Numbered from the stretch's first letter, positions 7,554 to 26,658 are shown. The stretch is DNA of 64,000 nt from Opitutaceae bacterium (GCA_014879845.1 JACSRI010000147.1:1-64000); one strand, 5' to 3'. Notes: generated from the sequence alone by a model not told the origin. Program-made: numbers and translations.

Positions 7554-7668
7554 CGCCGGCGGAACCGTGCCGGGGCGGTGAGGATCCCCATGATTTTGTT
7601 GCGCAGGCCGGGGACGTTCCGGAATCGTCGCCCCTTCATTCGTCCGGCGGCCTTCGGCCGAGGGACAT

Positions 7669-7714: not shown

Positions 7715-7738
7715 TTGCTTACCTATGAAGAATTTCTG

Positions 7739-8074: not shown

Positions 8075-8091
8075 GATCGGAAAAACCGATC
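8075..8091. promoter_or_regulatory. inverted repeat upstream of the sensor kinase gene
   Basis: GATCGG-AAAAA-CCGATC lies about 90 bp before the GTG start of the kinase. It could be an operator or a small leader hairpin. No matching copy was noticed elsewhere, so function is a guess. Confidence 0.3.
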
Positions 8092-8180
8092 GCCTCAGTC
8101 CAAACCAGGCAGCATCTTCAAGACCAAGCAGCGTTCAGCGATGATCCAGCGCCGAGTCTGGGCATTCCCAGCCGACAATC

Positions 8181-11144: not shown

Positions 11145-11797
11145 GTCTGCCCGAGATCACACGACCCGAAAAAGCCGCAGGCGCCATCCGCTTGGTTGTC
11201 GCAGACGACCATGTCACCGTTCTTGAGGGCCTGGTCGCAATCATCAGTCGACAAGCCGATATGCGCGTCGTTGGGCAGGCTTCCGATGGCGAACGCGCAG
11301 TCCAATTGTGCCGGGAGCATCATCCCGACATCGCCCTGCTCGACCTACGTATGCCCAGGCTCGACGGCGTCGAGGTCATCCAGGAGCTGCGCCAGGTGAA
11401 CGAGAAGATTCGAGCGATCGTGCTGACGACGTTCGATACGGATGCCGATATCGCCAAGGCCGTGCGGGCTGGAGCCAAAGGCTACCTGCTGAAGGACGCG
11501 CCCCGGGAGGAAATTCTTGCGTGTATCCGACGCGTGCATGCAGGCGAGACGTGCATTCCCGCCGCCCTCGTGGCCAAGCTGGCGGCCGGGATCAGCAGCG
11601 AGCCGGTTACTCCACGTGAACTTGATGTGCTCACCCTCCTGTCGCGCGGGTTGAGCAACAAGGAGATCAGTTCCAGGCTGAGCATCAGCGAAACGACCGT
11701 GAAGGCACATCTTCGGGCGATCTTCACCAAGCTCAATGTTCTCAGCCGCACGGAAGCCATCGCCGTGGCGACGCGGCGCGGACTCGTTCAGCTCTAG
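11141..11797 (+). CDS. NarL/FixJ-family response regulator
   Basis: 218 residues. The receiver domain (~12-130) has the acidic pocket in LVVADDHVTVLEG, phosphoacceptor D68 in ALLDLRMPRLDGVEV and the Lys in GYLLKDAPREEIL. The C-terminal LuxR-type HTH (~152-215) shows TPRELDVLTLLSRGLSNKEI and SETTVKAHLRAIFTKLNV. An ATGA overlap with the preceding kinase indicates translational coupling and a cognate pair. Once phosphorylated it should dimerise and bind DNA. An 18-bp perfect palindrome ~50 bp downstream, before the sigma-factor gene, is a possible target, but this is untested. Confidence 0.93.
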   Translation: MSLPEITRPEKAAGAIRLVVADDHVTVLEGLVAIISRQADMRVVGQASDGERAVQLCREHHPDIALLDLRMPRLDGVEVIQELRQVNEKIRAIVLTTFDTDADIAKAVRAGAKGYLLKDAPREEILACIRRVHAGETCIPAALVAKLAAGISSEPVTPRELDVLTLLSRGLSNKEISSRLSISETTVKAHLRAIFTKLNVLSRTEAIAVATRRGLVQL

Positions 11798-11847
11798 GCG
11801 CCTGGGATCTTCGTCAGGGTCCGCCGACCGATAGGCCCACGCCTTCC

Positions 11848-11865
11848 CTAGTTCGTACGAACTAG
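11848..11865. promoter_or_regulatory. 18-bp perfect palindrome, putative operator
   Basis: CTAGTTCGT/ACGAACTAG is an uninterrupted palindrome in the 315-bp gap between the response regulator and the sigma-factor gene. It is 248 bp before the sigma ATG. No T-tract follows, so an operator is more likely than a terminator. Nothing else recognisable is seen in 11798-12112. Confidence 0.5.
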
Positions 11866-12112
11866 CGCCGCATCGTTCGCCCGTAGCAGGGTTTTCGGCC
11901 CATACGATCGATGCTTCCTCATGCGCTGGCCTGCTAGGGTAGCGTCATGAATCCGGCTGCGCCAGCTCTCGCGAAAGCTCCAGCGCCCTCTCGATTCGGG
12001 ATGCCCCACGATCCGGCGGGTGGAAATCTGGTAGGCTGCCAAGCCAGGCCCGCACGCCCCGAACATAGTCTCACGGAGTCGGCCCCCGACCGGGCCAAGT
12101 CCACCTCGTAGG

Positions 12113-13096
12113 ATGACGACGGATTCCGAAGATCTTCGCGCCGTGCTGGCCGACCTGGAGCGTCGGGGCGAAGCAGCGCGCACTGCGGGCGATGAACCCT
12201 TGGCCGAGAAGCTCTTTCGCGAGGGCGTGGTGCGCCTGAGCGCACAGGTGAATACGACAGGCACACGTGACGGTTCGCAGATTTCCGAGGACGCCTTGCT
12301 GCTGGGCGCTCGCCTAGCCCTGCACGCGGGTGACCTAGAAAACGCCCGGCAGATTGCTGCGATCGCGCGTTCGAAAGCGCAGACGGAAGAGAGCATGAAA
12401 GCATGGCACGACCTGTTCGACATGGCCCTCTGGGGCGATGCGTGGCTGGTCGCTGCGGCAAGACGTGAACCTCCGGAGATGCCGGCGCTTGATGAACTTG
12501 TCGCGCGCCACTGGAAGACACTCTACGCACGCTGTCGCCTGCTTGCGCTCGACCATCACCGCGCCAGCGACCTCGCCCAACAGGCATGGTGCCGCATCCT
12601 GCGAGCACGCCAGGACCTCCGGCCCGGTGGCAACTTTCGCGGCTACCTGCTCGCAGCGGCGACGAACCTGTGGCGCGACTCACTTCGCTCCTCTCAACGG
12701 GCTGGTCCACTCTCCGATCAGCGCCTTTCCTGCCTGGATGAAGTGCTTTCGACCGATGCGGAGTCCTCCACGGCGCTTCGCGATGTCCTTCCCGACGCGA
12801 AATCGATCCGCGCCCGCGATACGATCCATCTGCGCATGGACATCGATCGGGCTCTCGCCCAACTCTCGCCGTTGATGCGCGAGGTACTCGTCTGCCGCCT
12901 GATCTCGGGCGAATCCTGCGCCTCGATCGGCGCGCGTCACGGACGCACCGAGCAGACCGTCAGCGGATGGGTGCGCGAGGCAATTCGCGAAATGAAGCGC
13001 CTGCTCGAGGAGCCAGTCGAACGCGAACCCCAGAACGACGACGTCAAAGTCGCACGCACGCCGAGTCGCTCGACCCCGCACGCGATCCGAGGCTGA
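12113..13096 (+). CDS. ECF-like RNA polymerase sigma factor with N-terminal extension
   Basis: 327 residues, longer than the usual 170-220 of ECF factors. Residues ~125-200 carry region 2 (LVARHWKTLYARCRLLALDH, ASDLAQQAWCRILRARQDL and a -10-recognition-like stretch NFRGYLLAAATNLWRDSLR). Residues ~240-305 carry region 4 (ALAQLSPLMREVLVCRLISG, SCASIGARHGRTEQTVSGWV). The first ~120 residues are helical, charged and unassigned; they may act as a built-in regulatory domain. ATG at 12113. No anti-sigma gene is adjacent: the next gene is convergent. The upstream kinase/regulator pair on the same strand may control it. Confidence 0.82.
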   Translation: MTTDSEDLRAVLADLERRGEAARTAGDEPLAEKLFREGVVRLSAQVNTTGTRDGSQISEDALLLGARLALHAGDLENARQIAAIARSKAQTEESMKAWHDLFDMALWGDAWLVAAARREPPEMPALDELVARHWKTLYARCRLLALDHHRASDLAQQAWCRILRARQDLRPGGNFRGYLLAAATNLWRDSLRSSQRAGPLSDQRLSCLDEVLSTDAESSTALRDVLPDAKSIRARDTIHLRMDIDRALAQLSPLMREVLVCRLISGESCASIGARHGRTEQTVSGWVREAIREMKRLLEEPVEREPQNDDVKVARTPSRSTPHAIRG

Positions 13097-13214
13097 CACT
13101 CGTCGGCGCGAACCGGGGCGGCGCGAAACGCTCGCATCGCCGTTGTCGGAGTTGGTCGGCGGTAGCCTCGGCATCTGCCGTTCCCGCCGGAACCTCCGCC
13201 CTCGCAGGGCGCCT

Positions 13215-14027
13215 CTACGTTCGAAGCGCGACAGAGGTGCGAGCGACCTTGTCCGTGGCCCAGGCGAGCGCGAAGTCTGCGACCTCTTCCCAGCCTTGCT
13301 CGGCGATGATATAGTGGCTTCGGCCGGCAAACTCCTTGTATTCGGTCACTGCTGACGAAGCGCGGTGCCTGCGGAATATCTTCCGGCTCAGGGCCGCCGG
13401 CATGATGACGTCCTTTTCTCCACCGACGACGAGCATCGGTGGGCGAGCTGGGTTGCGGAAGTTGACCGCGGTAGAAGCCCCGGGTGTGACGTTGGCCAAG
13501 GCCGCCTGAAAGATCGCTCGTCCCGATGCGGGTATCACCTGCGCCTCGTACTCTCGACGGGCGTCTGCCTCCGTCAGTGTATTGGCAAAAACCCGCCACC
13601 ATTGCGGGAACGAGAAGATGAACGTGCTCCGGTAGTTCAGCGGATTCGCCAGGGCACCGGTCAACGCGCCGTAGGTCGAGAAAGGGAGCAGGTAGATGCC
13701 CTTCGGCGGCACGGAATCGATCGCGACGACAGCGGCACCGAGGCCTCGATCCGCCAGGGCCTGCGTGACCAGCCCGCCATACGAATGCCCCATGATGATC
13801 GGCGGTTCAGGCAACTCACGGATGATGCGCGCGTAGTGCTCGATCACATCCTCTGCACCGACCCCATGCAGACTCGATGCATCGCGACGCATCTCGGCCG
13901 GGCTCCCTTCCACACCCGGCCACGCGGGTGCCAGCACCGTGTATCCCTGGGCTTCATAGCGGCGTTTGAACTTGTCCCAACTGAGCGGCGTGACCCAAAG
14001 GCCGTGAATCAAGATGATGGTGTTCAT
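13215..14027 (-). CDS. alpha/beta hydrolase
   Basis: 270 residues from the ATG at 14027 (MNTIILIHGLWVTPLSW); a longer frame upstream adds an atypical tail. The oxyanion region is IHGLW, the nucleophile elbow is MGHSYGGLVT, an acid lies in VVGGEKDVIMP and the His in FAGRSHYIIAEQ. It resembles the esterase/haloperoxidase-like hydrolases often found with oxidative-stress genes. Substrate unknown. It lies 63 bp after an aldo/keto reductase gene on the same strand and is probably the last gene of a four-gene run that starts at 16896. Convergent with the sigma-factor gene. Confidence 0.85.
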   Translation of the reverse strand: MNTIILIHGLWVTPLSWDKFKRRYEAQGYTVLAPAWPGVEGSPAEMRRDASSLHGVGAEDVIEHYARIIRELPEPPIIMGHSYGGLVTQALADRGLGAAVVAIDSVPPKGIYLLPFSTYGALTGALANPLNYRSTFIFSFPQWWRVFANTLTEADARREYEAQVIPASGRAIFQAALANVTPGASTAVNFRNPARPPMLVVGGEKDVIMPAALSRKIFRRHRASSAVTEYKEFAGRSHYIIAEQGWEEVADFALAWATDKVARTSVALRT

Positions 14028-14090
14028 GATGGGTAGCTTGGTGGCTGCGCTGTTCAGGAAGTGTCCGGCGTCTTGCACGCCTCGATGCGG

Positions 14091-15125
14091 TCAGCGGACG
14101 GCGTGACCACGCGCGGCGCGCTTCGCGAGTTTTCCCCCGGCGACCCGTTGCATGCTCGCCGCGACGAAGTCGTGAGGAAATCCCAGGGAAACCGCACTGG
14201 CCTCGTCGAGCCGCCGCAGGTGCTCGTCGGAGAGGCGCACGTCCGAGGCTGCGAGATTGTCGGCCAGTTGCTCAGGCGTGCGCGGCCCGAGAATGGGGAG
14301 CGTGCCCCTTGCCAGTACCCACGCGATCGCCGCCTGACCCGGCGAGCAGTTCAGTTCCTGCGCGACCGCCAGCACCGCATCGACGGCCGCCGTCTTGCGT
14401 GCATCGCTCTCGCCGTGAACGACGGCCCCCAGTCCCTGCGCTCGGCCGGATTCACCCTTCCGATATTTGCCAGTCAGCAGGCCGCCACCGAGCGGCGACC
14501 AACTGACCACACCAAGATCAAATGCTGCCGCCATCGGCAGAAGTTCACGCTCTGGAGTCCTCTCCACCAGGCTGTACTCGATTTGCAGCGCAGCGAGTGG
14601 TGCCAAGCCGCGCAAGTTGGCAAGAGTCGCCGCCGTCGCCACTCGCCACGCTGGGAAATCCGAGAGCCCGATATAGAGCGCCTTGCCGCTCCGCACCAAC
14701 AGGTCGAGGCCGAGCATGATCTCGTCAATCGGTGTCACACTGTCGGGCATGTGGACCCAGAGGAGATCGACGCGGTCGGTCTTCAGTCGTCGCAGACTCG
14801 CCTCCACCGACTGGACCATGGCCCTTCGACTATTGCCGACACCCAGCGGCCCCGGATTCGCGCTGTCGCCCAGCGAGAACTTCGAGGCGAGGAAAATCTC
14901 GTCGCGTTCGGCTGCGATAAACTCACCCACCATCGATTCGGATTGGCCGAACTGATATTGATCGGCGGTGTCGATGAAGTTTCCGCCTGCGTCGCGATAG
15001 CCGCGATACACGCTGAAAGCCTCGTCGCGGTCAGATCCGTATCCCCACCCCTTTCCGAAGTTGGCGGTGCCAAGCGCGAATGCAGACAGATGAAGGCCGG
15101 TGTGGCCAAAGTTACGATGGTGCAT
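14091..15125 (-). CDS. aldo/keto reductase
   Basis: 344 residues, (beta/alpha)8 family. Catalytic residues are visible: Asp and Tyr in FIDTADQYQFGQSES, Lys in IFLASKFSLG, and His in DLLWVHMPDSVTP. The C-terminal NADPH-binding part includes WVLARGTLPILGPRTPEQLA. The enzyme reduces aldehydes or ketones, probably as detoxification in the cytoplasm. ATG at 15125 preceded by an AGGA-type ribosome site. It sits 36 bp downstream of an alpha/beta hydrolase gene and upstream of another, forming a small reductase/hydrolase operon. Confidence 0.93.
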   Translation of the reverse strand: MHHRNFGHTGLHLSAFALGTANFGKGWGYGSDRDEAFSVYRGYRDAGGNFIDTADQYQFGQSESMVGEFIAAERDEIFLASKFSLGDSANPGPLGVGNSRRAMVQSVEASLRRLKTDRVDLLWVHMPDSVTPIDEIMLGLDLLVRSGKALYIGLSDFPAWRVATAATLANLRGLAPLAALQIEYSLVERTPERELLPMAAAFDLGVVSWSPLGGGLLTGKYRKGESGRAQGLGAVVHGESDARKTAAVDAVLAVAQELNCSPGQAAIAWVLARGTLPILGPRTPEQLADNLAASDVRLSDEHLRRLDEASAVSLGFPHDFVAASMQRVAGGKLAKRAARGHAVR

Positions 15126-15161
15126 GAGGTGTCCTATGAGAGTGCGTTGCTCCGGCGGGCC

Positions 15162-16079
15162 TCATCCTTGGGTCCGCGTGAGGAACTCCAGGATATACCC
15201 GACCATCAGTTCTGGATGCTGATGTTGCGGTGCGTGTCCCGTGTCAGAGATCAGGATGAACTGGGCGCTGGGAAGCTTCCCGATCAGTGGATACCAGTTC
15301 TCCACTGGATTGCTGGTGTCCGCATCTCCGCTCACGATGAGCAGCGGCACCGGAAGCGTGCTCAACCGCGCTCGTCGTCCGCTCGCGTCCGCCCGATACG
15401 TCCCGTGCGCATCGAGAAACGGCTTGAACTGACTCATCGAAGACGGGATGCGATCCGCCACACCCTTGCGCGCGTAGATCCGCTCGTGCGATCGCTTCGC
15501 GGCGAGACGACTCCGTTCCGATGAGGGGACGAAGAACAGAACCTCCTCGTCGTCGAGGTCGTTGACTGGCCTGAGCGCCCGCTCCAGGAATCCGGGATCG
15601 ATAGCGTGGGTCGTGGCACCCGGCGGATTGGTGCCGAGCAGAATCGCGTGGGTGACGCGCTCCGGATGCTCGACCACGAACGACTGCACCGCGAACCCTC
15701 CCCACGACCAGCCAAGGATCGTGAATTTCTCCAGCGCCAGCGCCTGGACGAGCGCATCAAGGAACGCGACAACTTGCCCCATATCCGAAGGCAACATCCC
15801 CGAAGAGTATCCAACGCCCGGATAGTCGAAGGTGATGACACGACGGTGTCGCGCGAGTTCATCCAGGAAGAGCGGATCCCACGTGTCCAGGGTGCCGCGG
15901 AAGCGATTCGCCAGCAGGATCGTCGCCCCGCGACCCGCCTCGCGATACGCGATCCTGTCCCCATTCACCTCGACGTAACGAGTCGGTGAATCACCTGCAT
16001 TGTGGTCTGCCACCACCGCCGGAACGTTCGCCGTTACGCCCAGCGTGGTAGCCGAGGTGTGTCGCATGGACAAAGTCAT
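15162..16079 (-). CDS. alpha/beta hydrolase (NRFRG-type)
   Basis: 305 residues from the ATG at 16079, which has a good AAGGAGAG ribosome site; an upstream in-frame start at 16106 lacks one. The nucleophile motif is LGWSWGGFAV, an acid is in IVSGDADTSNP and the His in ISDTGHAPQHQH. The usual HG oxyanion motif is replaced by LLANRFRGTLDTWDP, a pattern known in a sub-group of hydrolases annotated as haloperoxidase- or oxidoreductase-like. The N-terminal ~40 residues before YVEVNGDRIAYREAG are unassigned. Substrate unknown. Likely co-transcribed with the downstream aldo/keto reductase. Confidence 0.87.
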   Translation of the reverse strand: MTLSMRHTSATTLGVTANVPAVVADHNAGDSPTRYVEVNGDRIAYREAGRGATILLANRFRGTLDTWDPLFLDELARHRRVITFDYPGVGYSSGMLPSDMGQVVAFLDALVQALALEKFTILGWSWGGFAVQSFVVEHPERVTHAILLGTNPPGATTHAIDPGFLERALRPVNDLDDEEVLFFVPSSERSRLAAKRSHERIYARKGVADRIPSSMSQFKPFLDAHGTYRADASGRRARLSTLPVPLLIVSGDADTSNPVENWYPLIGKLPSAQFILISDTGHAPQHQHPELMVGYILEFLTRTQG

Positions 16080-16209
16080 GATGTGTCTCTCCTTCCTGCC
16101 GCGCACGCGGCCTTGCTAGGATTCGCCGTTCACGGAACTCGGTGCCACGTGCGGTCCCCGCCCCACCCGTATTTGAGTCCGGGGCGAGGACACACCCGCT
16201 TGCGGGCGA

Positions 16210-16896
16210 TCAATGCGCCGACGTCGCCACCGGACGATACTCCGGGAATTCCGTCTGCGGAGCCTGGTGAACCATGGTGTAGGCGTACTCCACACCGGCC
16301 CCATAGGCGCCGAAGTGCGTCTTCACGATGTCCATCACCGCGTCGTACGTGCCACGTGAGGCCCAGTCGCGCTGCCACTCCAGCATGACCGAAAGCGCTG
16401 TCACCGGCTTCGCACCGGCCTGAATCACACGCTTCATCGCGTTCTCGTGCGCGAGCAAGCTGACGTCACCACAGCAGTCTTCGACCACGAAGACGGAGTA
16501 GCCGTCGAAGATCGCCTGGATGGTCGGCAAGGCGACGCAGGTCTCGGTCCAGAGGCCGGAAAGGACGATGTTCTTGCGACCGGTCTTCTTGATCGCGGCG
16601 ACGAAGTTGGCGTCGTCCCACGAGTTCATCGTCGACCGCTCGATCGGCACCTCGCCCTTGAAGACCGCCTGGATCTGCGGCCACATGTATCCGCTGAATG
16701 CCTTCGTCTCGACCGTGCTCAGCACGACCGGCACGCCGAAGACGCGCGCGGCTTTCGAAAGCGCCACGTTGTTGTTGATGATCGACTGGCGATCATGAGA
16801 TGCGACGCCGAAGAGCATCTGCGGCTGGAGATCGATGATCGCGACGACGGAGTTGTCAGGAGTGAGGAGGCCTTTTTCGGACAGCTTTGTGTTCAT
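16210..16896 (-). CDS. isochorismatase-family hydrolase (YcaC-like)
   Basis: 228 residues from the ATG at 16896 (MNTKLSEKG). The catalytic Asp is in SVVAIIDLQPQMLFG and the nucleophilic Cys in GLWTETCVALPTIQAIFDGY, both typical of cysteine hydrolases of the isochorismatase fold. The overall pattern is closest to YcaC-type proteins of uncertain substrate. The C-terminal extension (TYDAVMDIVKTHFGAYGAGV) is common in this sub-group. It begins the run of detoxification genes that continues leftward to 13215, 201 bp after the lipoprotein gene of the upstream cassette. Confidence 0.88.
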   Translation of the reverse strand: MNTKLSEKGLLTPDNSVVAIIDLQPQMLFGVASHDRQSIINNNVALSKAARVFGVPVVLSTVETKAFSGYMWPQIQAVFKGEVPIERSTMNSWDDANFVAAIKKTGRKNIVLSGLWTETCVALPTIQAIFDGYSVFVVEDCCGDVSLLAHENAMKRVIQAGAKPVTALSVMLEWQRDWASRGTYDAVMDIVKTHFGAYGAGVEYAYTMVHQAPQTEFPEYRPVATSAH

Positions 16897-17097
16897 AGGA
16901 TCGAGGGTGTCTGGGCTGGCCCGGCCGAGGAACTCTCGCCGGACGCGCCCCATGTCGTTTTCTGCGTTTCAGCACCGGTCGATCTGGCATGGCGAGCATT
17001 CCATGGTCGCACACCGATCGCCGGCACCTCTACTTACGCCGGCGGGCGGTGGAATGAAAACGCGTCGCCCATCAGCCGAGATTTTCCAGCGTCACCC

Positions 17098-17874
17098 TCA
17101 GCGCCCCTTGCCATCGACCACTGCCCGAGCGACGACGTATCCGCCGACCTGAGGCAGCACATCGAGTCGGGCAAACGGCTCGAAGCCCGGCCTTACCACG
17201 AGGACCGCATAACTCGATCCGGTGTGCGTCCACGTCGACCACGAGTTGTCCGGCTGTATCGAGTGCTGGGCGCCGCCGACCGGCTGGATGTACCAGGCAT
17301 CGGCACGGGCGTAGACGAGCACCTTGTAGCCAGGCTTGATCTCGCCGCTGACCGTTCCCGAGATATCCGCCCGGGTTTCCGGGCCGCCGTGGGGATCATA
17401 CGGCGGCACCGTACTGATCTCCACACCCACCGCCGGGATGAGGCTGTTCTGCACCACCGCCCGCTTCTCATCCATGGAGAGATCGACAGATGATTCGGCG
17501 ACCACCTGACCATCGCGCCGCACGACGACCGACACTCGATCGCGCGTCGCTCCGGGCGAAAACCGGAACACCGTCGTGGGCCACTCCGTCTCCTGGGGCT
17601 GACACGTTCCCGCCACCGCAAACCACGTGTAACGCACACCCGCTTGAGGCCCGCTCACCTGGGCCATGATCTCGACCCGGCCGATGTCCGAATCGTTGGA
17701 AGGCTGCACGTGCAAGGTCACACGGGTCGCGTCGCTGCGGGCACAACCCGCGAACACTACCAGCAAGCCGGCATATGCGACCACGGCAACGATGCGGCCG
17801 GAGCGCGCAAGGCCACACCACCAGCTCGCAACGCATCGGGCATGCCGGAAGAAGAGATCTTGGATTCTATTCAT
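17098..17874 (-). CDS. predicted lipoprotein, third gene of a membrane Lon-like protease cassette
   Basis: 258 residues from the ATG at 17874. That ATG overlaps the end of the preceding membrane-protein gene by 8 bp, which indicates translational coupling and fixes the start. A signal peptide (~18-40) ends in a lipobox, LLVVFAGCARS, so the mature protein should be lipid-anchored. Residues ~45-140 look like a beta-rich, Ig-like domain. Residues ~175-250 (YKVLVYARADAWYIQPVG, SWSTWTHTGSSYAVLVVRPG) form a second beta-rich unit; its exact family was not identified. No catalytic motif is visible. Its operon position suggests a periplasmic partner or sensor for the membrane protease-like protein. 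Confidence 0.75.
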   Translation of the reverse strand: MNRIQDLFFRHARCVASWWCGLARSGRIVAVVAYAGLLVVFAGCARSDATRVTLHVQPSNDSDIGRVEIMAQVSGPQAGVRYTWFAVAGTCQPQETEWPTTVFRFSPGATRDRVSVVVRRDGQVVAESSVDLSMDEKRAVVQNSLIPAVGVEISTVPPYDPHGGPETRADISGTVSGEIKPGYKVLVYARADAWYIQPVGGAQHSIQPDNSWSTWTHTGSSYAVLVVRPGFEPFARLDVLPQVGGYVVARAVVDGKGR

Positions 17875-19561
17875 AACCCAGGCTGTTGAGATACGAGACG
17901 TGATAGCGCCCCACACGTTCTCCCGAGACATACTCTCGTCCGAGGAAGCGGCGTCTGCGCTCGATCCAGACGACACCTTCGTCCTCGCGGTCGTAGACTT
18001 GGTGACTCGCCCGCCGCAGCGCGAGTTCGGCACGGACGCCACCACGCGCCCCGCCATAGCGCTCGAAATCGACGCGACGGTTGGACCAGAATTCCGATTC
18101 GAGAACTGCACGGAAGTGACGCGGCGATTCCGCATCGATGCTGACCCAAAGGTAGTAGGGAGAGGGCGAGCCCGGCGTCACCACGGCCGGAGCAGGTGGA
18201 GGCCGAAGGATCGCGAGAAGATCCGGACCGGCCGCGCCCACGGTTGCCATGACCAGGACCGCAACAATGTTCATACCCAACTGCCGCCAGGACCACAGGC
18301 CGCCGAGCGTCATGAGCGCGTGCGCCACATGGCCGCACCGATGAATCCGCAATGTGTCCGAGTCGGCCGCAAAGCCCACGCTTGGCTCCACGGCAGCCGC
18401 CTCGATGCCGTGCGGCACTCGACCGGATGCATCGCTCCGTGGTGACGCGACCTGCTTGAGGGCGTGGGAATGCCGCCACGGTAGGAGGAGATTGGATATG
18501 CTCTCATGCCGGCTGCAGGCCCGCACCTTGGCATCGACGAGCACCGGGCGCACCGCTCCCGTCGGCGTGACGGTTCCGCTCGCCGCCCATCTCGCGACAG
18601 CCGTGTCCGTCAACTCCAGCACGTGCCGCCAGAGGCCTGCATCCGACGACGCGTCCTTCTCGCTTCGATAGGCCGCGAGCAACATGCCGAGGCAGAAGGG
18701 CAATCCGGCTGACGCTCCCTTCACCGTCAATCCGCCCGACATGGAGAGTCGCACCTGCCCATGGACCAGCCGACCCGCCAGCCGCCGGCCTCGTCGCCAG
18801 GTGCGCCAACACTCGCGCCCAAGCAGCGTGCCTTGCGTGAGCAGCAGCGCGCCCACCAACCCGGAGAGCACGGCGACGATGCCTTCGAGCGACGCGCCGG
18901 GCTCCGGTCCCCACAACAAGCGCACGATCAGCCCCACGGCAGCCAGCCACCCCACGGTCACGGCCGTGTTTGTGATTCGGCTGTATCCACGTCGTCCTCC
19001 GACCAGCCAGAGCGCGAGGAGAATGGCCAGGCCACGTCCTTTGAGCGTGCCTATGGAGGCCTGCCTCGCAGCTTCGAGGTCGGTCGATTCAGCGCAAAAG
19101 CCGTCTCCGACCACTCGCGACGCGGACGTATCCGGATCCGGCGGCAGCAGCACCGCTTCCAGGCGCCGGACATCGCTCGCTTCACCCTGGCTCTGCTCCG
19201 CCACGACCACGGCGGAGATCGTGGCACACCCGTACCCCGTGCGGAACGGTGCGAACGCGTACCAGCGATCGAAGGGCGGCACGTGCGCCAGTTGCGCCAG
19301 CACGAACCGCGGCACTTCGGCGTGGTCGCGGCTCTCCACTTCGTTTGTCCATGCGCTGGAAATCCAGTCGATCAGGGCGCTCTGCGCGTGCTCACTGCGT
19401 CCGATCGCGGCGATCGCGCTGCGGTCGTCTTCGCTCGCGACATGCCGATACCATTCATCCCAGTGGCCGGCCAGGCCGTGCAACGGACCGCGCAGGACCA
19501 GACCGTCGCGGAATGCCTCACGCGCCCAGTGCCAGAAGGTCCAGAACCAAACGTAGCTCAT
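17867..19561 (-). CDS. integral membrane protein with a Lon-like (S16) Ser-Lys protease domain and no AAA+ module
   Basis: 564 residues. Hydrophobic stretches at ~177-188, 195-217 and 224-245 suggest three membrane passes; another lies at ~428-446. Residues ~265-365 resemble the Lon proteolytic domain. A GASAGLPFCLGMLLAAY segment supplies candidate Ser284, WAASGTVTPTGAVRPV matches the Lon TGEVTLxGxVxPV strand, and LVDAKVRACSRHESISNLLLP supplies candidate Lys345 at the Lon KEKLLAA position (motif quoted in part). The Ser-Lys spacing is 61, longer than in Lon (~43), because of an insert. There is no Walker motif or ATPase domain. The N-terminal ~170 residues are Trp-rich and unassigned. Middle gene of a three-gene minus-strand cassette; start ATG at 19561. 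Confidence 0.7.
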   Translation of the reverse strand: MSYVWFWTFWHWAREAFRDGLVLRGPLHGLAGHWDEWYRHVASEDDRSAIAAIGRSEHAQSALIDWISSAWTNEVESRDHAEVPRFVLAQLAHVPPFDRWYAFAPFRTGYGCATISAVVVAEQSQGEASDVRRLEAVLLPPDPDTSASRVVGDGFCAESTDLEAARQASIGTLKGRGLAILLALWLVGGRRGYSRITNTAVTVGWLAAVGLIVRLLWGPEPGASLEGIVAVLSGLVGALLLTQGTLLGRECWRTWRRGRRLAGRLVHGQVRLSMSGGLTVKGASAGLPFCLGMLLAAYRSEKDASSDAGLWRHVLELTDTAVARWAASGTVTPTGAVRPVLVDAKVRACSRHESISNLLLPWRHSHALKQVASPRSDASGRVPHGIEAAAVEPSVGFAADSDTLRIHRCGHVAHALMTLGGLWSWRQLGMNIVAVLVMATVGAAGPDLLAILRPPPAPAVVTPGSPSPYYLWVSIDAESPRHFRAVLESEFWSNRRVDFERYGGARGGVRAELALRRASHQVYDREDEGVVWIERRRRFLGREYVSGERVGRYHVSYLNSLGYE

Positions 19562-19600
19562 AGGCGTGATCCGTGATATCGCAGGCGGACGCCGCTCAAC

Positions 19601-20149
19601 TCATGGAGACGGCAGACAACGCAAGATGAGCCGGAACGGCATCGGATCGGTTACGCGGAGGGTGCCCCACGCTTGTTCGAGTGCCGGTGGAACGTCGCTC
19701 TCGATGCGGTATTCCCGCTCCGTGGAGCGCAGCGCGGGCGCTTCCATCAACGCCCCGGACGGCGAATCCGCGACGAACGTGGCGGCAAATGCTTCGGCCT
19801 GCAGTGCTGCATCCGACTCGAGTTGCACGCGCAACCGCAGCTTGCCGTCGCGCACATAGAAGAAGAGTACGCGGGCTGCCGCATCCACGCCCTCGCCTTG
19901 GGACGAGACCACGAGGACCGGAACCAAATGGCTGCCGCTCGCGCGCTGATGTTCCGACATCGCGTACCCATAATTTGCCCTCATGCGCTCGAGGTGCGTC
20001 GCTAGTGCTCGGAAACGCTCCGGCCAGGCTTCCCACCATGGGCGCGCCTGCTCGACCAAACGAGCCGCGCGCGGGGCAGGTGGTGCTTCGCTTTCCGCAC
20101 ATGCTTCGCGCCAGCGGAGCAGCCGCAAAACCGTAACTTCAGGCTTCAT
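19601..20149 (-). CDS. hypothetical protein, first gene of the Lon-like protease cassette
   Basis: 182 residues, soluble by eye, with no signal peptide or membrane segment. The N-terminal half is helical and rich in Arg/Ala/Trp (LVEQARPWWEAWPERFRALA). The C-terminal half is beta-rich (VPVLVVSSQGEGVDAAARVL; LRVTDPMPFRLILRCL). No family or catalytic motif is recognised. It lies 39 bp upstream of the membrane protease-like gene on the same strand, so the two are probably co-transcribed. It could be an adaptor, substrate or regulator. ATG at 20149. Confidence 0.65.
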   Translation of the reverse strand: MKPEVTVLRLLRWREACAESEAPPAPRAARLVEQARPWWEAWPERFRALATHLERMRANYGYAMSEHQRASGSHLVPVLVVSSQGEGVDAAARVLFFYVRDGKLRLRVQLESDAALQAEAFAATFVADSPSGALMEAPALRSTEREYRIESDVPPALEQAWGTLRVTDPMPFRLILRCLPSP

Positions 20150-20498
20150 CGCGAAATGGATCCTTGCGGCCTGCTACCGACATGGGAACGCACACCCGCC
20201 CTCCGGCCACCCGAGCGACCGAACATCGCGGCGACCGGCAGTCGGACTAGATCATTCACGGTCGCGCGACGAAGCCCTTGCGACTCAGCCGCGGTCACCG
20301 GCACGGGCGACGCGTTTTCAGTCCTGACACACGTCGCGTCGGAACGGTGCCAGAACGGTGGTTTCGTAAAGAAGCATGCTGCACAGGGATCTCCTCCCTG
20401 AGGCCTTACGTTCGCGCCGGCCGAACTGAAAACGTGACCGAAGCTTTTCTTTCCGGCGCGTTACATCGCCACCCTGCCCGCCCGACTCAGCCCCTAAA
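20150..20498. other. 349-bp intergenic region, no gene recognised
   Basis: This gap lies upstream of the three-gene protease-like cassette and downstream of the esterase gene, both on the minus strand, so it should contain the cassette promoter. Short frames on both strands have no ribosome sites or recognisable products. No clear palindrome or terminator with a T-tract was seen. Confidence 0.5.
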
Positions 20499-21143
20499 CT
20501 AAACGCGCACCGCCAACTCGCCAATCCGTGCCCGCAGCCATTCAAGCTCCCCAGGGAATAGTGCGTGTGCCGCACCAGCATAGACCTGGCGCGTGACCGA
20601 TGCCTTGGACCGGGCGAAGACAGCGGCGCTCTCCTGGACAAACGGGAGCGGGATGTGGCTGTCTGACTCAGCGCACGCGATGAGCACGGGCGTCTGTTTC
20701 ATATCGATGACTGGCCGGGGCGAGTCGATCGGTCCGATCAACGCCCCGCTCAGTCCAGCGACAAACGCGAATCGATCAGGGTGCCGGAATGCATATTCGA
20801 GTGCGAGACAGGCCCCTTGCGAGAAACCCACGAGTCCGATGCGCTCGCGCGGCACACCGGTCGCTTCCGCCTCCCTGATCAGACTCCCGATCGCGCGAAG
20901 CCCCTGCGACAGCCATGGCTCGTTCGAAGCCAGCGGCGCCAGAAAGCGGTTCGGATACCACGTGCCGTCTGCCGCCGACGGCGCGAGGAAGGCGATTCCA
21001 TCAGCAGCCAGCGCTTGGGCGAGCTCCGCCATGTCGTGGCCGGACGAGCCCCGGCCATGGAGGAGAATCACGGCCGCGTGAGCGCGCTCGAGGGCGGTGC
21101 CGTAGCGCAGCGTGGTTACGTCGGAGGGTGAGTTCATCGGCAT
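20499..21143 (-). CDS. carboxylesterase/phospholipase-type hydrolase (MhqD-like)
   Basis: 214 residues of the alpha/beta hydrolase fold, esterase D/YpfH type. The oxyanion site is ILLHGRGSSGHDM, the nucleophile is in LVGFSQGACLALEYAF, the acid in IACAESDSHIPLP and the His in AGAAHALFPGE. The previous gene in the operon encodes a VOC-family ring-cleaving dioxygenase-like protein. In Bacillus the mhqO-mhqD pair of the same two families responds to quinones and electrophiles. By analogy this protein may hydrolyse a ring-cleavage or quinone-derived product. ATG at 21143; 33 bp after the dioxygenase gene. Start and family are firm, substrate is not. Confidence 0.88.
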   Translation of the reverse strand: MPMNSPSDVTTLRYGTALERAHAAVILLHGRGSSGHDMAELAQALAADGIAFLAPSAADGTWYPNRFLAPLASNEPWLSQGLRAIGSLIREAEATGVPRERIGLVGFSQGACLALEYAFRHPDRFAFVAGLSGALIGPIDSPRPVIDMKQTPVLIACAESDSHIPLPFVQESAAVFARSKASVTRQVYAGAAHALFPGELEWLRARIGELAVRV

Positions 21144-21176
21144 CGTTCGTTGAGGTTTCTGGATACGGCGCGAACG

Positions 21177-22154
21177 TCAGCTGCGGGTCGCGATCGGCAT
21201 CGGGTGGTTCGTTGGGCGCGGCGCACGCAGCGGTGGCAGCAGGGCTTCGATCTCACGTCGAGCCGGCTCGAATTGGCCGGGTAGCTTGAGGGCGGTGCCG
21301 AGCGAATCCACAGGCTCGTCCACCGCAAAACCCGGAATATCGGTGGCGATTTCGAAGAGAATGCCTCCGCGCTCGCGGTAGTAGATCGAACGAAAATAGC
21401 TGCGATCGCGCACGGGCGAGACGACAAAGCCCGCTCCGGTCAGGAGCGCGTGTGCGTTCTTCTGTGCAGCATCATCCACCACCCCCCACGCGACGTGATG
21501 GATCGTTCCGACCCCGCCAATACCCTCGACGGCATCCGCCCCGGCGATCACGTCGATGAACGTACCGGGCGTCCTGAGAACTGTCGCGTATCGCGCACGA
21601 CCGCCTTCGCTGCGCACATGACGGTAGCCCATGACTCCGGTCAACAACTGCGTTGTCGGTTCGGCTCTAGTCACGGTCAGCTCGGTGGTGTGCAGACCTC
21701 GGAGCGCATGCTCCTGAGGCACACCCGCGCCGGACCAGCCGTTCCGTGAATCGCCCACCGCGCCCACGATCTCGATCGGGATCCCGTCAGGGTCGACGAA
21801 TGTCACCACATCCTCGCCGAAGCGGATCTGTCGCAAGGCCGCAACCCCGTGCGCGGTGAGCCGCTCGACCCAATAGGTGAGCGATTCTGGTGCAGCGGAA
21901 AAACTCAGCCGGGTCGACTGCCCCGCGCCAACCCGGCCGCGACCAGCGCCGCCTGGCCAATAGAAGAACGTGACGATGGATCCCGGGGCGCCGTTCGTGT
22001 CGCCGTAATACAGGTGATAGGCGCTGGGATCGTCGAAGTTGACCGTCTTCTTGACCAGGCGCAGCCCGAGCAAGCCGGCGTAGAAATCGACATTGCGTTG
22101 TGGATCACTGGCGATCGCCGTGACGTGATGAATTCCGTGGATGAGTGTGTTCAT
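21177..22154 (-). CDS. VOC-family ring-cleaving dioxygenase-like protein (MhqO-like)
   Basis: 325 residues from the ATG at 22154 (MNTLIHGIHHVTAIASDPQR). Two glyoxalase/VOC halves are visible: ~5-150 with HHVTAIASDPQRNVDFYAG and ~150-290 with LRGLHTTELTVTRAEPTTQL and GTIHHVAWGVVDD. The late stretch YFRSIYYRERGGILFEIATD carries the terminal metal Glu. The family is annotated as ring-cleaving dioxygenase and linked to hydroquinone/quinone resistance (MhqO/MhqA). It is placed between a cupin gene (11 bp upstream) and the esterase gene, supporting a common operon. Metal and substrate are not determinable here. Confidence 0.92.
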   Translation of the reverse strand: MNTLIHGIHHVTAIASDPQRNVDFYAGLLGLRLVKKTVNFDDPSAYHLYYGDTNGAPGSIVTFFYWPGGAGRGRVGAGQSTRLSFSAAPESLTYWVERLTAHGVAALRQIRFGEDVVTFVDPDGIPIEIVGAVGDSRNGWSGAGVPQEHALRGLHTTELTVTRAEPTTQLLTGVMGYRHVRSEGGRARYATVLRTPGTFIDVIAGADAVEGIGGVGTIHHVAWGVVDDAAQKNAHALLTGAGFVVSPVRDRSYFRSIYYRERGGILFEIATDIPGFAVDEPVDSLGTALKLPGQFEPARREIEALLPPLRAPRPTNHPMPIATRS

Positions 22155-22165
22155 GGTGGTGTCCT

Positions 22166-22516
22166 TCAAGCAAACGGGATGAAGAGCGAGCGTCGTGTAC
22201 CCGCGTTGATCTGGCGGGTCCGGTGCCCGCGACCGTCCGTATCCTCGAGTTGGAGCACATCGCCGCCGACGAACCTGCGCACGGCACCGTCGCCCGTCTC
22301 GATCTCGATTTCGCCGTCGAGCAACACGACCCACTGTTTCTGCGGCGCGGGATGCCAATCAAAGTCGTAGTCGCCGGAGGTCTCGCGAAAGATCAATGCC
22401 CCGGCCGGATGCCGCCCCGAGAGCCGGCCGATCGTTCCGGCCGGCTCGAGCGGGATCTCGCGATCTTCGAAGTGCGTGACGCCATCGGCATCCGCTTGGA
22501 TCCGGGTGATTTTCAT
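22166..22516 (-). CDS. cupin-domain protein
   Basis: 116 residues forming a single small cupin barrel. The core strands WVVLLDGEIEIETGDGAVRR and FVGGDVLQLEDTDGRGH are typical. The first motif carries only part of the usual metal ligands (FDWHPAPQKQ), so metal binding is uncertain. It is the gene directly before the MhqO-like dioxygenase, 11 bp away, and probably belongs to the same operon. Possible roles are a small dioxygenase/isomerase or a binding protein. ATG at 22516. Confidence 0.82.
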   Translation of the reverse strand: MKITRIQADADGVTHFEDREIPLEPAGTIGRLSGRHPAGALIFRETSGDYDFDWHPAPQKQWVVLLDGEIEIETGDGAVRRFVGGDVLQLEDTDGRGHRTRQINAGTRRSLFIPFA

Positions 22517-22604
22517 GTCGTCACGATACCACGTCCCCGGCGGACGCCTAGTGCGTCCCCGGTGTAGCCGCTATGCCTGCCGTGCATATCGTCCGCCACG
22601 CCGC

Positions 22605-23177
22605 TCACACCTCGTGCGCCTCGACTTTCCACAGCAGCTTGTCGAGCGCCCGGGACACCTGCGTGAAGACATCGCTTGTATCCAGATCGCCCGCTTCAGC
22701 CGCGGCATCGATCGCCGAGCGCGCGGACTTCGCCACAGCAGCCAGGGAGTTGCCAAGGGCCCGGATGTGGTCGCCGCCCGCCAGAAGCCGCGCGTCGTAG
22801 GGAGGCAGGCTCGACTCCCGTGCCACGACCTCTGCCGTGCCGAGCGCGAGACCTCCGAGCGCCACCGCACGCTCGGCGACGTCGTCCGCGAGTTCGGCCA
22901 CATCGTCATCGATGCTGTCGAACAGCTCGTGCAGCGCGATGAACTGGAGACCCTTCACATTCCAGTGCGCTTGTTTGGCGCGCAGGCGCAGATCGATGAG
23001 CAGCACGAGCTGTTGGCTCAAGAGACCGACCGACGTCGCACGCACCGTTTCCGGCAGGTCGTGACGCGATGACCAGACGATCGCCGGTGCGCGTGCAGGC
23101 GCCGAGCCACCCTCTTGAGAGGGATTCGTATCGCGCGCCTCACGACGGCCGGCCTCTCGGTTCGACGCATCAAGCAC
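22605..23177 (-). CDS. dps: Dps-family ferritin-like protein
   Basis: 190 residues starting at a GTG. The ferroxidase-site helices are recognisable in LRAKQAHWNVKGLQFIALHE and LFDSIDDDVAELADDVAERA; the His of AHWNVKG and the Asp/Glu of the second stretch are the usual metal ligands. Dps forms a 12-mer that oxidises Fe2+ with H2O2 and can shield DNA. The N-terminal ~40 residues are longer than in most Dps and basic, which may aid DNA binding. Its start lies 2 bp after the stop of the chloroperoxidase-like gene, so both are coupled. Fits the oxidative-stress theme of this run. Confidence 0.9.
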   Translation of the reverse strand: MLDASNREAGRREARDTNPSQEGGSAPARAPAIVWSSRHDLPETVRATSVGLLSQQLVLLIDLRLRAKQAHWNVKGLQFIALHELFDSIDDDVAELADDVAERAVALGGLALGTAEVVARESSLPPYDARLLAGGDHIRALGNSLAAVAKSARSAIDAAAEAGDLDTSDVFTQVSRALDKLLWKVEAHEV

Positions 23178-23179
23178 GC

Positions 23180-24190
23180 TCAGGCCCTCGCGAATTCCAG
23201 GAGGTCGGCGTTGAACCGCTCCTTGCTCGTGTCGCCCAGACTGTGGGAGCCCCCTTCATAGATCTTCAGGATGGCGCCCTTGACGAGCTTGGATGACAGC
23301 ATCGCTGCGCCCTGAATCGGCACGATCTGATCGTCGTCGCCGTGAATGATCAGGGTGGGCACGTCGAACTTCTTGAGGTCCTCCGTGAAGTCGGTTTCCG
23401 AGAACGCCTTGATGCAATCATACGCGTTCTTGTGGCCGGACATCATGCCCTGCATCCACCAGGACTGAATCAGCCCCTTGGAGACCTTGGCGCCAGGCCG
23501 GTTGAAGTTGAAGAACGGCCCGCTCGCCACATCGAGGAAGAACTGCGCGCGGTCCGCGAGATAGGCTGCGCGGAAGCCGTCGAACACCTCCATCGGCAAA
23601 CCGACAGGATTGTTCTTCGATTTGAGCATGATCGGCGGCACAGCTCCCATGAGCACGGCCTTCTTGACCCGCTTGGTGCCGTGCCGACCGATATAGCGCG
23701 CCACCTCTCCGCCCCCGGTCGAGTGACCGACCATCATCACGTCTTTGACGTCGAGCGCGGTGAACAGCTCGTTGAGATCGTCGGCGTAGGTGTCCATCTC
23801 ATTGCCGTTCCACGGCTGGCTCGACCGTCCATGGCCCCGACGGTCGTGGGCGATGCACCGGAACCCGTGCGAGGCGAGGTGAAACATCTGCGCCTCCCAG
23901 GCATCTGCTGACAGCGGCCATCCGTGACTGAAGGAAATCACCGGACCTGTTCCCCAGTCCTTGTAGTAGATCGTCGTGCCGTCGCGTGTCGTGAATGTGC
24001 TCATACGTTGTTGGATTGGTTTGGATGTTGTTGCTTGCGGAAGCGGTGAGTCGGCGCCCGTCGCCGCCCAAGACGCCGAGGCTAGGGCGGCCGCGCCGAG
24101 CGCGGTTCCCGCATTGAGCAGGAACGTGCGGCGCGACATGCTGGGCGCTTCGACGGATGAGCTGAGTGCAGTTGGGTGGTCGTTTTGCAT
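23180..24190 (-). CDS. non-haem chloroperoxidase-like alpha/beta hydrolase with Tat signal
   Basis: 336 residues. A twin-arginine signal is visible near the start ([20 protein letters not shown]), so the folded protein should be exported. The mature part matches cofactor-free haloperoxidases/arylesterases: [30 protein letters not shown] oxyanion region, [13 protein letters not shown], nucleophile [16 protein letters not shown], acid [10 protein letters not shown] and His in [11 protein letters not shown]. Such enzymes hydrolyse esters and can form peracids with H2O2. Alternative start at the internal ATG just before SRRTF. It precedes dps directly, in an operon with DoxX and amidohydrolase genes. 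Confidence 0.9.
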
Positions 24191-24281
24191 GTTCGTCGGG
24201 CGGAACTGGCAGGGATTGTTCGGAGGCGCTCACCTCGCACCGCTGTGCGCCGGTGAGCCCCACTTCTGCCGGCACTCGTTA

Positions 24282-24755
24282 CTACGTCGGCTCCTCGAAT
24301 CCTGAAAATGCCGCCGTCTTTCGCAGCGCGATCCGCGCGTCGATCGAGTACCGACCACCGCCGATCATCGCGACCGTCGCCAGAATCGCCGCATACAGCA
24401 TCGCCAATTCCGGGCTACTGCCCGTCGTGAGATTCTGGACAATGGCCACGCCCATGGTGGCCGCGAGCAGGCACGCGTTCAGCCGTGTCCGCCACCCAAC
24501 CACGATCAACGCACCACAGACGACTTGGATGAGCGTCGCCACCCACGCGAAGACCAACGGCGCCGGCAGATGCATCGCGGCAACTTCCTCCACAAGCGGC
24601 CACGGCGTGTCGCGTCGCAGCAAGGTCCAACCTCCCGCAGCCTTGTGGCAGCCATGGACAGAGACGATCAGAAGCCCCCCGACACTCCGCAGCAGCAGTG
24701 AGGACCACGACACCGCGCCCGCCGGATCTTCGCTCTGAAAGCGCGCCGATGCCAT
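24282..24755 (-). CDS. DoxX-family membrane protein
   Basis: 157 residues with four hydrophobic segments: LLLRSVGGLLIVSVHGCHKA, PAPLVFAWVATLIQVVCGAL, RLNACLLAATMGVAIVQNLT and LAMLYAAILATVAMIGGG. This pattern is typical of DoxX/DoxD-like inner-membrane proteins, several of which act in redox or thiol stress. No specific catalytic residues can be named. The gene lies 24 bp after the amidohydrolase gene and 91 bp before the chloroperoxidase-like gene, all on the minus strand. Confidence 0.85.
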   Translation of the reverse strand: MASARFQSEDPAGAVSWSSLLLRSVGGLLIVSVHGCHKAAGGWTLLRRDTPWPLVEEVAAMHLPAPLVFAWVATLIQVVCGALIVVGWRTRLNACLLAATMGVAIVQNLTTGSSPELAMLYAAILATVAMIGGGRYSIDARIALRKTAAFSGFEEPT

Positions 24756-24779
24756 GTCGCGATTTCTCGCCTCACCGCC

Positions 24780-26633
24780 CTAGAACGCGAAGCAACTGCA
24801 CCCGGAGCCCCAAAGTCCGAGCCCGCCGTCCCATGCGCCATGGCGCGGGGCGCCGGCATGCCCATGACGATGGTGGTGATGGTGGCAGCACGATGCCGTG
24901 TGCGCGTGAGCCGCGGCCGCCCTCGCAAATCCCGGAGCGCCATAGCCGCCGAACCGCGCCACCGGTGACCACTCCGGCAGCACGGGAATCGGCGCGGGAG
25001 CCAGATCGCTGAACTCATCGGCCCCGTACACGATTCGTCCACCCACCACGGTCAGCACCGCACTGATGCGCTGGATACGCTCATCCGGAACGGAGAAATA
25101 GTCATCCGAAAGGACCGCGAGGTCGGCAAGTTGCCCCGGAACGATCGCACCCTTCTTGCCGGTCTCCGAAGAGAACCAGCTGCTGCCGATCGTGTAGAGA
25201 CGAAGCGCCTCCTCCCGGCTGAGACGGTTCTGCTCGGGATAGAGCTCCAGCCCGCCGGCGGTTCGACCGGTGGTCAACCAGTAGAGCGAAACCCACGGGT
25301 TGTAGCTGGCGACGCGTGTGGCGTCGGTTCCCGCACCCACGGGAATTCCCATCTCGAGCATGCGGCGCACAGGAGGTGTGCGCTCAGCCGCCTGTTTGCC
25401 GTAACGTTCGACGAAATATTCCCCTTGATACGCCATGCGATGCTGCACCGCGATGCCGCCTCCGAGCGCGCGAATGCGCTCCAAGCTGTGATCCGAGACG
25501 GTCTCCGCATGATCGAAGAACCAGTTCAGTCCGGTCAGCGGCACCTCACGATGCACCTCCTCGAAGACATCAAGGAAGCGGCGGATCGACTCGTCATAGG
25601 TCGCGTGCAGACGGAACGGCCAGCGGTTCTTGGCCAACACCGTGACGACCTCCTTCAACTCGCCTTCGAGCGAAGGTGGCAAGTCCGGTCGCGGTTCGAG
25701 GAAGTCCTCAAAGTCGGCGGCAGAGAACACGAGCATCTCGCCCGCTCCGTTCATGCGGAAGTAGTCGTCTCCCTTGCCCGGTTCCGTCATCTTGATCCAC
25801 CGCACAAAGTCGTCCTTTTCCTGCTTCGGGCGCTGGGTGAAGAGATTATAGGCGATGCGCAGGGTAAGTTCGCCGCGGGCGTGCAGGTCGTTGATGATCG
25901 CGTAGTCGTCCGGATAGTTCTGAAAACCGCCGCCGGCGTCGATGATGCTCGTGACGCCGAGCCGGTTGAGCTCGCGCATGAAGTGCCGCGTGGAGTTGGC
26001 CTGGTGCTCGGGCGGGAGCTTCGGCCCTTTCGCCAGAGTCGCGTAGAGAATCGTCGCGTTCGGCCGCGCGATGAGCAGGCCGGTGGGATGGCCGTGCTTG
26101 TCGCGCTGGATCTCGCCGCCGGGAGGATTCGGCGTGTCCTTGGTGTAGCCGACAGCGCGCAGCGCGGCCTGGTTGAGCAGCGCGCGACAGTAGAGATGCA
26201 GAATGAATACGGGCGTATCGGGCGCCGCGGCGTTCAGCTCCTCGAGCGTCGGCATGCGGCGTTCCGCAAACTGAAACTCCGACCAACCGCCGACCACACG
26301 CACCCACTGTCCCGGGGGTGTGCGCGCCGCCTGTTCACGCAACATCGCGAGGGCATCGACGAGGGACGGCACACCGTCCCATCGCAGCTCGAGGTTGTAG
26401 TTCAACCCGCCCCGGATGACATGCAGGTGCGAATCGTTCAGTCCCGGGATTACCGTCCGTCCATGCAGATCGACGACGCGCGTGGTCCCGGTGCGGAGGG
26501 CGATCATCTCGGCGTCGCGCCCGGTCGCGAGGATCCGGCCATCCTTGATCGCGACCGCCTCGACGAACCTGTTGCGCTCGTCCTGTGTGGCGATCCGGCC
26601 GTGGGTGAGAATCAGGTCTGCTGTTGATTTCAT
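24780..26633 (-). CDS. YtcJ-like metal-dependent amidohydrolase with His/Cys-rich tail
   Basis: 617 residues from the ATG at 26633 (MKSTADLILTHGRIATQDE). Amidohydrolase family 3 features: DLHGRTVIPGLNDSHLHVIR with the HxH metal motif, FRLHATYDESIRR, GLNWFFDHAETVSDHSLERI and GAGTDATRVASYNPW with the late metal Asp. The domain ends with GQLADLAVLSDDYFSVPDER. After ~residue 570 comes an unusual tail, HTASCCHHHHHRHGH, followed by a Gly-rich end with GCSCFAF. The tail could bind Ni, Zn or Cu or aid metal loading. The substrate (amide, carbamate or ester) is unknown. Probably co-transcribed with the ABM-domain gene 25 bp upstream. Confidence 0.9.
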   Translation of the reverse strand: MKSTADLILTHGRIATQDERNRFVEAVAIKDGRILATGRDAEMIALRTGTTRVVDLHGRTVIPGLNDSHLHVIRGGLNYNLELRWDGVPSLVDALAMLREQAARTPPGQWVRVVGGWSEFQFAERRMPTLEELNAAAPDTPVFILHLYCRALLNQAALRAVGYTKDTPNPPGGEIQRDKHGHPTGLLIARPNATILYATLAKGPKLPPEHQANSTRHFMRELNRLGVTSIIDAGGGFQNYPDDYAIINDLHARGELTLRIAYNLFTQRPKQEKDDFVRWIKMTEPGKGDDYFRMNGAGEMLVFSAADFEDFLEPRPDLPPSLEGELKEVVTVLAKNRWPFRLHATYDESIRRFLDVFEEVHREVPLTGLNWFFDHAETVSDHSLERIRALGGGIAVQHRMAYQGEYFVERYGKQAAERTPPVRRMLEMGIPVGAGTDATRVASYNPWVSLYWLTTGRTAGGLELYPEQNRLSREEALRLYTIGSSWFSSETGKKGAIVPGQLADLAVLSDDYFSVPDERIQRISAVLTVVGGRIVYGADEFSDLAPAPIPVLPEWSPVARFGGYGAPGFARAAAAHAHTASCCHHHHHRHGHAGAPRHGAWDGGLGLWGSGCSCFAF

Positions 26634-26658
26634 GAATACGTTTCCCAAGTGGTTGAGG

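Follow-up and report, generated by a model that had tools for sequence, protein, structure and literature searches.

In the CalpL/T/S system, an extracytoplasmic function (ECF) sigma factor is freed when its anti-sigma factor is cleaved by a Lon-type protease (PMC11417357, PMC12751052). YlbL of Bacillus subtilis, a PDZ-Lon protein, is a membrane-bound Ser-Lys protease of peptidase family S16 that lacks an ATPase and contains an N-terminal transmembrane segment and a PDZ domain (PMC6051672). Among the Lon proteases, archaeal LonB carries a membrane insert within its AAA+ module, LonC is soluble and retains a degenerate AAA+ module, and 42 residues lie between the catalytic Ser and Lys residues of LonA and LonB (PMC9569914). 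In the case of IutY, an envelope signal is conveyed to an ECF sigma factor by proteolysis using Prc and the metalloprotease RseP (PMC8999054). Here, these systems are compared with a three-gene cassette (positions 17098–20149, minus strand) from a 64,000-nucleotide stretch of DNA of an Opitutaceae bacterium (GCA_014879845.1, JACSRI010000147.1:1-64000; the whole stretch is referred to as the window). The middle gene of the cassette encodes a 564-residue protein that very probably contains an S16 domain interrupted, according to structure modeling, by predicted membrane segments.

The cassette consists of genes for a 182-residue soluble protein (19601–20149), the 564-residue Lon-like membrane protein (17867–19561) and a 258-residue lipoprotein-like protein (17098–17874), all of which are open reading frames (ORFs) on the minus strand. 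The protease and lipoprotein genes overlap by 8 nucleotides, ATGAATAG. Only one other genome, that of Opitutaceae bacterium EW11 from the same family, was found to carry the whole cassette. The EW11 genes are arranged in the same order with the same 8-nucleotide overlap, and their products are 44% (protease), 42% (182-residue protein) and 44% (lipoprotein) identical to those of the window, a recurrence beyond coincidence. None of the three proteins has a significant match in Pfam, NCBIfam, PHROGs or PADLOC. The initial annotation of this DNA, which had described a three-gene cassette with an unrecognised 182-residue member, is borne out in these respects, including the overlap. It had missed a fourth gene outside its interval, which encodes a 327-residue ECF sigma factor (12113–13096, plus strand) and is orthologous to the first gene of the EW11 operon.

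The 564-residue protein contains three Lon-type motifs, GASAGLPF with the candidate nucleophile Ser284 (codon 18710–18712, minus strand), SGTVTPTGAVRP, and VDAKVRAC with the candidate general base Lys345 (codon 18527–18529, minus strand). Plain Pfam and NCBIfam hidden Markov models (HMMs) did not detect an S16 domain in the protein. An S16 HMM built from the Lon domains of the phylum gave a weak match (expectation value (E) of 0.047), which ranked the window protein just under true S16 relatives and over all shuffled sequences and unrelated ORFs, with the EW11 protein below the window protein. In profile–profile comparison with Lon domains using hhalign, the score of 43.0 was above those of all 400 composition-preserving column shuffles (mean 15.1, standard deviation 2.5, maximum 24.6), and the core alone gave a probability of 85% and an E value of 5.8e-6. 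In the resulting alignment, VRLSMSGGLTVKGASAGL pairs with a Lon strand and the catalytic Ser segment, SGTVTPTGAVRPV pairs with MTGEITLRGKVLPI, DAKVRAC pairs with KEKVLAA, and ISNLLLP pairs with IKEIILP. Sequence searches of the PDB with the full profile and with the core returned no relevant match. As judged by the profile comparison, the relation of the protein to peptidase family S16 is statistically significant.

The candidate catalytic residues occur in the expected order and are conserved in both known members, which are only 44% identical. Ser284 is located within one of the better-conserved blocks, in which 10 of 13 residues are identical between the window and EW11 proteins. The window protein has just five lysines among its 564 residues, and only Lys281 and Lys345 are shared with the EW11 protein. 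Both shared lysines belong to the motif region, and Lys281 is the counterpart of the Lys residue that immediately precedes DGPSAG in Lon. The protein contains neither a Walker A nor a Walker B pattern and matches no Pfam domain, so that an AAA+ module, intact or degenerate, was not found. The Ser-Lys pair and the lack of an ATPase proposed in the initial annotation are therefore both retained, and we have little doubt that the 564-residue protein comprises an S16 domain with a predicted catalytic Ser-Lys pair.

The fold was addressed with an AlphaFold2 (AF2) model of residues 100–430, for which the two cassette sequences were aligned with 15 domains of Lon or LonB-like type taken from viral contigs. 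The model has a predicted local distance difference test (pLDDT) score of 76.5 and a predicted template modeling (pTM) score of 0.75, and Ser284 and Lys345 are aligned with the Lon catalytic pair in all 15 Lon rows. All matches listed by Foldseek are Lon-type domains, with Lon proteolytic domains at the top (E = 3.6e-6). VIA-align superposed the model on the proteolytic domain of Escherichia coli Lon (1rr9_A) over 177 of 182 residues with a deviation of 2.6 Å and a Z score of 19.2. The S16 fold is thus well supported by modeling, with Lon rows included in the model alignment, and hhalign, Foldseek and the 1rr9_A superposition agree on the S16 assignment made in the initial annotation. Neither of the two outcomes that the initial annotation had named as refuting it, a predicted structure lacking the S16 fold and a loss of Ser284 and Lys345 among homologues, was observed. 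A full-length AF2 model was discarded, as it is meaningless past the N-terminal helical region and its VIA matches are merely common helical ones (Z below 8).

The superposed range of the model (model positions 12–324) corresponds to protein residues 111–423 and therefore places the first S16 strands and helix before, and the catalytic half after, the membrane segments. The S16 domain is quite probably split into a first half of three strands and a helix (residues 111–173; 19043–19231, minus strand) and a catalytic half (residues 269–420; 18302–18757, minus strand), separated by a membrane insert (residues 174–268; 18758–19042, minus strand). The first half is modeled with pLDDT values of mostly 81–94. 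The Lon rows cover only its first two strands; the third strand and the helix, to which 0 and 0.5 of the 15 Lon rows are aligned on average, are still within the superposed range and have pLDDT values of about 90. The split rests on the model, because comparison of the N-terminal half with Lon and LonB-like profiles ranged from not significant to suggestive. The domain limits of 250–370 in the initial annotation do not hold, as the S16 domain starts at about residue 111.

Hydropathy analysis identified hydrophobic stretches at about residues 169–188, 195–219, 221–248 and 426–453, in agreement with the several membrane segments noted initially. The second and third stretches form a predicted transmembrane hairpin (about residues 195–217 and 225–247) that is enclosed by Lys/Arg-rich flanks (residues 186–200 and 247–264), and the loop between its helices contains no Lys or Arg. 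The flanks on the S16 side contain 3 and 7 Lys/Arg residues in the window protein and 3 and 6 in the EW11 protein. The insert appears as helices in the AF2 model, and its short helix at residues 176–191 may lie along the membrane. Because of this positive-inside pattern, the S16 halves are placed in the cytoplasm. In the simplest reading of the hydropathy profile, the N-terminal helical region and both S16 halves would be cytoplasmic, with the hairpin inserted in the S16 domain, and the helix at about residues 428–450 (18212–18280, minus strand) would span the membrane and leave the Pro-rich linker and the C-terminal domain (residues 452–564; 17870–18208, minus strand) in the periplasm. This predicted periplasmic region is 55% identical between the window and EW11 proteins. 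A possible further membrane element is the aromatic segment at the start of the protein.

The predicted architecture differs from those of the described S16 proteins. The 564-residue protein is not a Lon protease proper, because the AAA+ module that LonA, LonB, LonBA and LonC carry in the same chain is missing and because the Ser-Lys interval is 60 residues in both cassette members instead of 42. Like archaeal LonB, the protein would be anchored to the membrane through an inserted segment, but the insert interrupts the proteolytic domain rather than an AAA+ module, which was not found. As in LonC and other ATP-independent S16 proteins, proteolysis without ATP would be expected, whereas the protein, unlike LonC, is predicted to be membrane-embedded and is devoid of an AAA+ module. 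With YlbL it shares the membrane-bound, ATPase-free Ser-Lys S16 domain. It is nevertheless not a YlbL protein, because no PDZ domain was found with Pfam, and its predicted transmembrane helices interrupt the S16 domain itself.

The cassette is extremely rare and occurs in two of the genomes sampled, the window genome and EW11. It is present in 2 of 252 genomes of the family Opitutaceae, and an order-level search of 223 genomes and a search of 388 genomes of the phylum yielded no certain member beyond the same two. Outside Verrucomicrobiota, where further members may exist, relatives were sought in pattern-limited scans of genome contigs, in plasmids and in viral contigs. The genome contigs provided no relative with the protease as the only query and EW11 alone with a second query, the plasmids contained no relative of the protease, the 182-residue protein or the sigma factor, and the viral contigs contained no relative of the cassette. 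Weak additional matches (L005, L010 and L011) were discounted as relatives, being short and low-scoring. The co-occurrence of the three genes, which the initial annotation had put forward for a genome search, recurs in EW11, and the rarity of the cassette had gone unnoticed.

In EW11, the gene for the 182-residue protein starts with GTG within the stop codon of an upstream ECF-type sigma factor gene, with a 4-nucleotide overlap. The sigma factor encoded in the window at 12113–13096 is 45% identical to the EW11 protein (E = 1.9e-74), far ahead of the second-best sigma factor of the genome, which matches at an E value of 4.5e-11. Sigma regions 2 and 4 are recognised in the window protein by PF04542 (6.5e-10) and PF04545 (7.9e-6), both over the cut-off, and the two sigma factors have in common an N-terminal extension of about 120 residues with 36% identity. 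Four unrelated enzyme genes, over a distance of about 4 kb, separate the window gene from the end of the cassette at which the lipoprotein is encoded. Since an orthologous sigma factor gene is found 4 kb away in the window, the operon is rearranged in one lineage, with its parts staying together. Computation thus shows joint conservation of the whole cassette and the ECF sigma factor.

Comparison of promoter motifs among the cassette, the EW11 operon and the sigma factor gene produced short, imperfect matches only, for which no null was computed, and a common promoter motif was not judged meaningful. The search for relatives of the N-terminal extension led to a related sigma factor in another Opitutaceae genome (G134; L122:6167-7225), whose gene adjoins that of a Ser/Thr kinase with a β-propeller; the protease cassette is missing there. 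Directly upstream of the sigma factor gene, the window (8181–11797, plus strand) encodes a sensor histidine kinase with GAF/PAS domains and a response regulator of the LuxR type.

The 182-residue protein is a candidate substrate or anti-sigma protein. Its position matches that of the anti-sigma factor in CalpL/T/S, with no recognisable homology. No long hydrophobic segment was evident by eye in its translation, and the pairing of a membrane helix with a cytoplasmic sigma-binding domain, as in membrane anti-sigma factors, was not recognised. Neither the 182-residue protein nor the sigma factor carries an export signal. The lipoproteins of the two genomes contain lipobox sequences, VFAGC and FSSGC, assigned by eye under a relaxed rule. 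The C-terminal domain of the lipoprotein matches proteins from Acidisarcina and Granulicella (E = 3e-7), which begin like lipoproteins and adjoin sensor histidine kinase genes; one of these acidobacterial kinases was checked and contains regulator-propeller repeats. No Pfam family covers the domain common to the cassette lipoprotein and the two acidobacterial proteins. The location of these domain relatives beside sensor kinases fits a periplasmic sensing role for the lipoprotein. The acidobacterial proteins (L013:5881-6972 and L014:5896-6993) also carry a second, C-terminal domain.

These features suggest that the locus may encode a transmembrane signaling protease that would free the ECF sigma factor through a cut in the 182-residue protein, a reading to which we assign an even chance. 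On the periplasmic side, the lipoprotein and the C-terminal region of the protease would sense a condition of the envelope. The split S16 domain would then be rearranged, either because the inserted hairpin moves or because the protease oligomerises, and Ser284 and Lys345 would become active. Cleavage would be limited and independent of ATP, with the 182-residue protein as the most likely target and the N-terminal extension carried by the sigma factor as the alternative, and the sigma factor would be freed to redirect transcription. In a more specific form, which is conceivable but which we would not yet expect to be true, the 564-residue protein would be a receptor and protease in one chain, in which a periplasmic signal received through its own tail and the lipoprotein would directly switch the cytoplasmic Ser-Lys protease, and the sigma factor would be freed without a site-1/site-2 cascade or a second messenger. 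Of the three roles offered in the initial annotation, signaling is thus favored by the sigma factor gene, and quality control and conflict are left as lesser rivals.

The proposed route resembles CalpL/T/S in its components, namely an AAA+-free Lon-type protease, an ECF sigma factor and a soluble third protein that occupies the anti-sigma position. The sigma factor gene is directly upstream in EW11 and 4 kb off on the opposite strand in the window. The cassette is nonetheless not a CalpL system, because no SAVED domain and no CRISPR-like array were found; CalpL has a SAVED domain fused to Lon, which was not matched by Pfam here, and the type III CRISPR locus of that system has no counterpart in the form of an array within window positions 7000–27000. 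The cassette differs further in the membrane insert within its S16 domain and in its lipoprotein partner. It may share with IutY-type systems an envelope-to-ECF-sigma route through regulated proteolysis that acts on either an anti-sigma factor or a sigma extension, whereas the candidate protease is of the S16 type and no membrane helix is seen in the candidate anti-sigma protein. The ATPase-free S16 domains described in the literature considered here are either soluble or attached to the membrane by a helix that lies outside the domain or by way of an AAA+ module. Membrane helices that interrupt the catalytic domain itself would couple an envelope signal directly to proteolysis. If true, the locus would represent CalpL/T/S signaling without CRISPR and would suggest that sigma-releasing Lon-type proteases represent a more general signaling design.

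Several observations weigh against the signaling reading. The 182-residue protein resembles no known anti-sigma factor. In the window, the distance, opposite orientation and intervening unrelated genes all separate the sigma factor gene from the cassette. Conservation rests on one comparison, because two genomes alone carry the cassette. On the structural side, the topology derives from hydropathy alone, the Lon rows in the alignment bias the model toward a Lon-like result, the profile comparison of the N-terminal half did not go beyond suggestive, and the full-length AF2 model from two sequences has a pLDDT of only 39.5.

It is unlikely that the 564-residue protein is instead a membrane quality-control or maturation protease, in which, as with YlbL, proteins of the membrane or envelope are trimmed by an S16 domain that needs no ATP, the lipoprotein and the 182-residue protein act as adaptors, and the sigma factor regulates the operon from outside the client pathway. 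YlbL shows that ATP-independent membrane S16 proteases exist (PMC6051672), and the window genome has no Lon_C match at E ≤ 1e-3, so another protease could assume some duties. However, such a role predicts a wide distribution, at odds with 2 of 252 family genomes and the same two as the only certain matches among 388 of the phylum, and the sigma factor gene is coupled to that of the 182-residue protein in EW11 and within 4 kb in the window. Beyond the window genome, Lon_C (PF05362) was also unmatched at E ≤ 1e-3 in most of the sampled Opitutaceae, whereas a clear Lon is present in many genomes elsewhere in the phylum. These searches suggest that the family Opitutaceae lacks canonical Lon.

Somewhat less probable still is a conflict or phage-defence module, a membrane version of CalpL/T/S in which infection or a foreign signal would activate the protease and lead to sigma factor release or harm to the cell. 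The likeness to the working of CalpL/T/S and the rare, patchy distribution agree with this alternative. In contrast, none of the four proteins is matched in PADLOC, the array and the SAVED domain are missing as described above, the lipoprotein partner points to an envelope signal, and the neighboring genes encode small metabolic enzymes. Matches in defence and phage libraries were limited to generic sigma factors and regulators. A SAVED search of the whole genome gave nothing, although the control genomes were likewise silent.

RadA and ComM carry Lon-like domains that are presumed to bind partners without cleavage, and the domains of both superpose well on the model. By analogy, the 564-residue protein could be an inactive scaffold that keeps the S16 fold and binds its partners without cutting, which we regard as improbable. 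The 60-residue Ser-Lys interval, against 42 in LonA and LonB (PMC9569914), and the loss of the GG ahead of the Lys region are in line with a pseudoprotease. They are countered by the conservation of both Ser and Lys in such divergent proteins, with Ser in the 10-of-13 identical block and Lys as one of two shared lysines. An inverted topology, in which a periplasmic S16 domain would cut the lipoprotein or other envelope proteins and the link to the sigma factor would be indirect, is very improbable, since the simple hydropathy-based topology and the N-terminal aromatic segment that leave room for it are opposed by the Lys/Arg-rich flanks on the S16 side (3 and 7 in the window, 3 and 6 in EW11, none in the loop) and by the lack of export signals in the 182-residue protein and the sigma factor.

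Another Lon-type domain was observed in the genome of a relative, where a BrxL-like protein (L021:1459-3450), assigned by eye from its sequence, may belong to a BREX defence locus. In the window, the cassette is set among small metabolic enzyme genes on the minus strand (13215–16953 and 20499–26648), some of which separate the sigma factor gene from the cassette. The surrounding enzymes include α/β hydrolases, an aldo/keto reductase, isochorismatase-like and glyoxalase-like proteins and an amidohydrolase.

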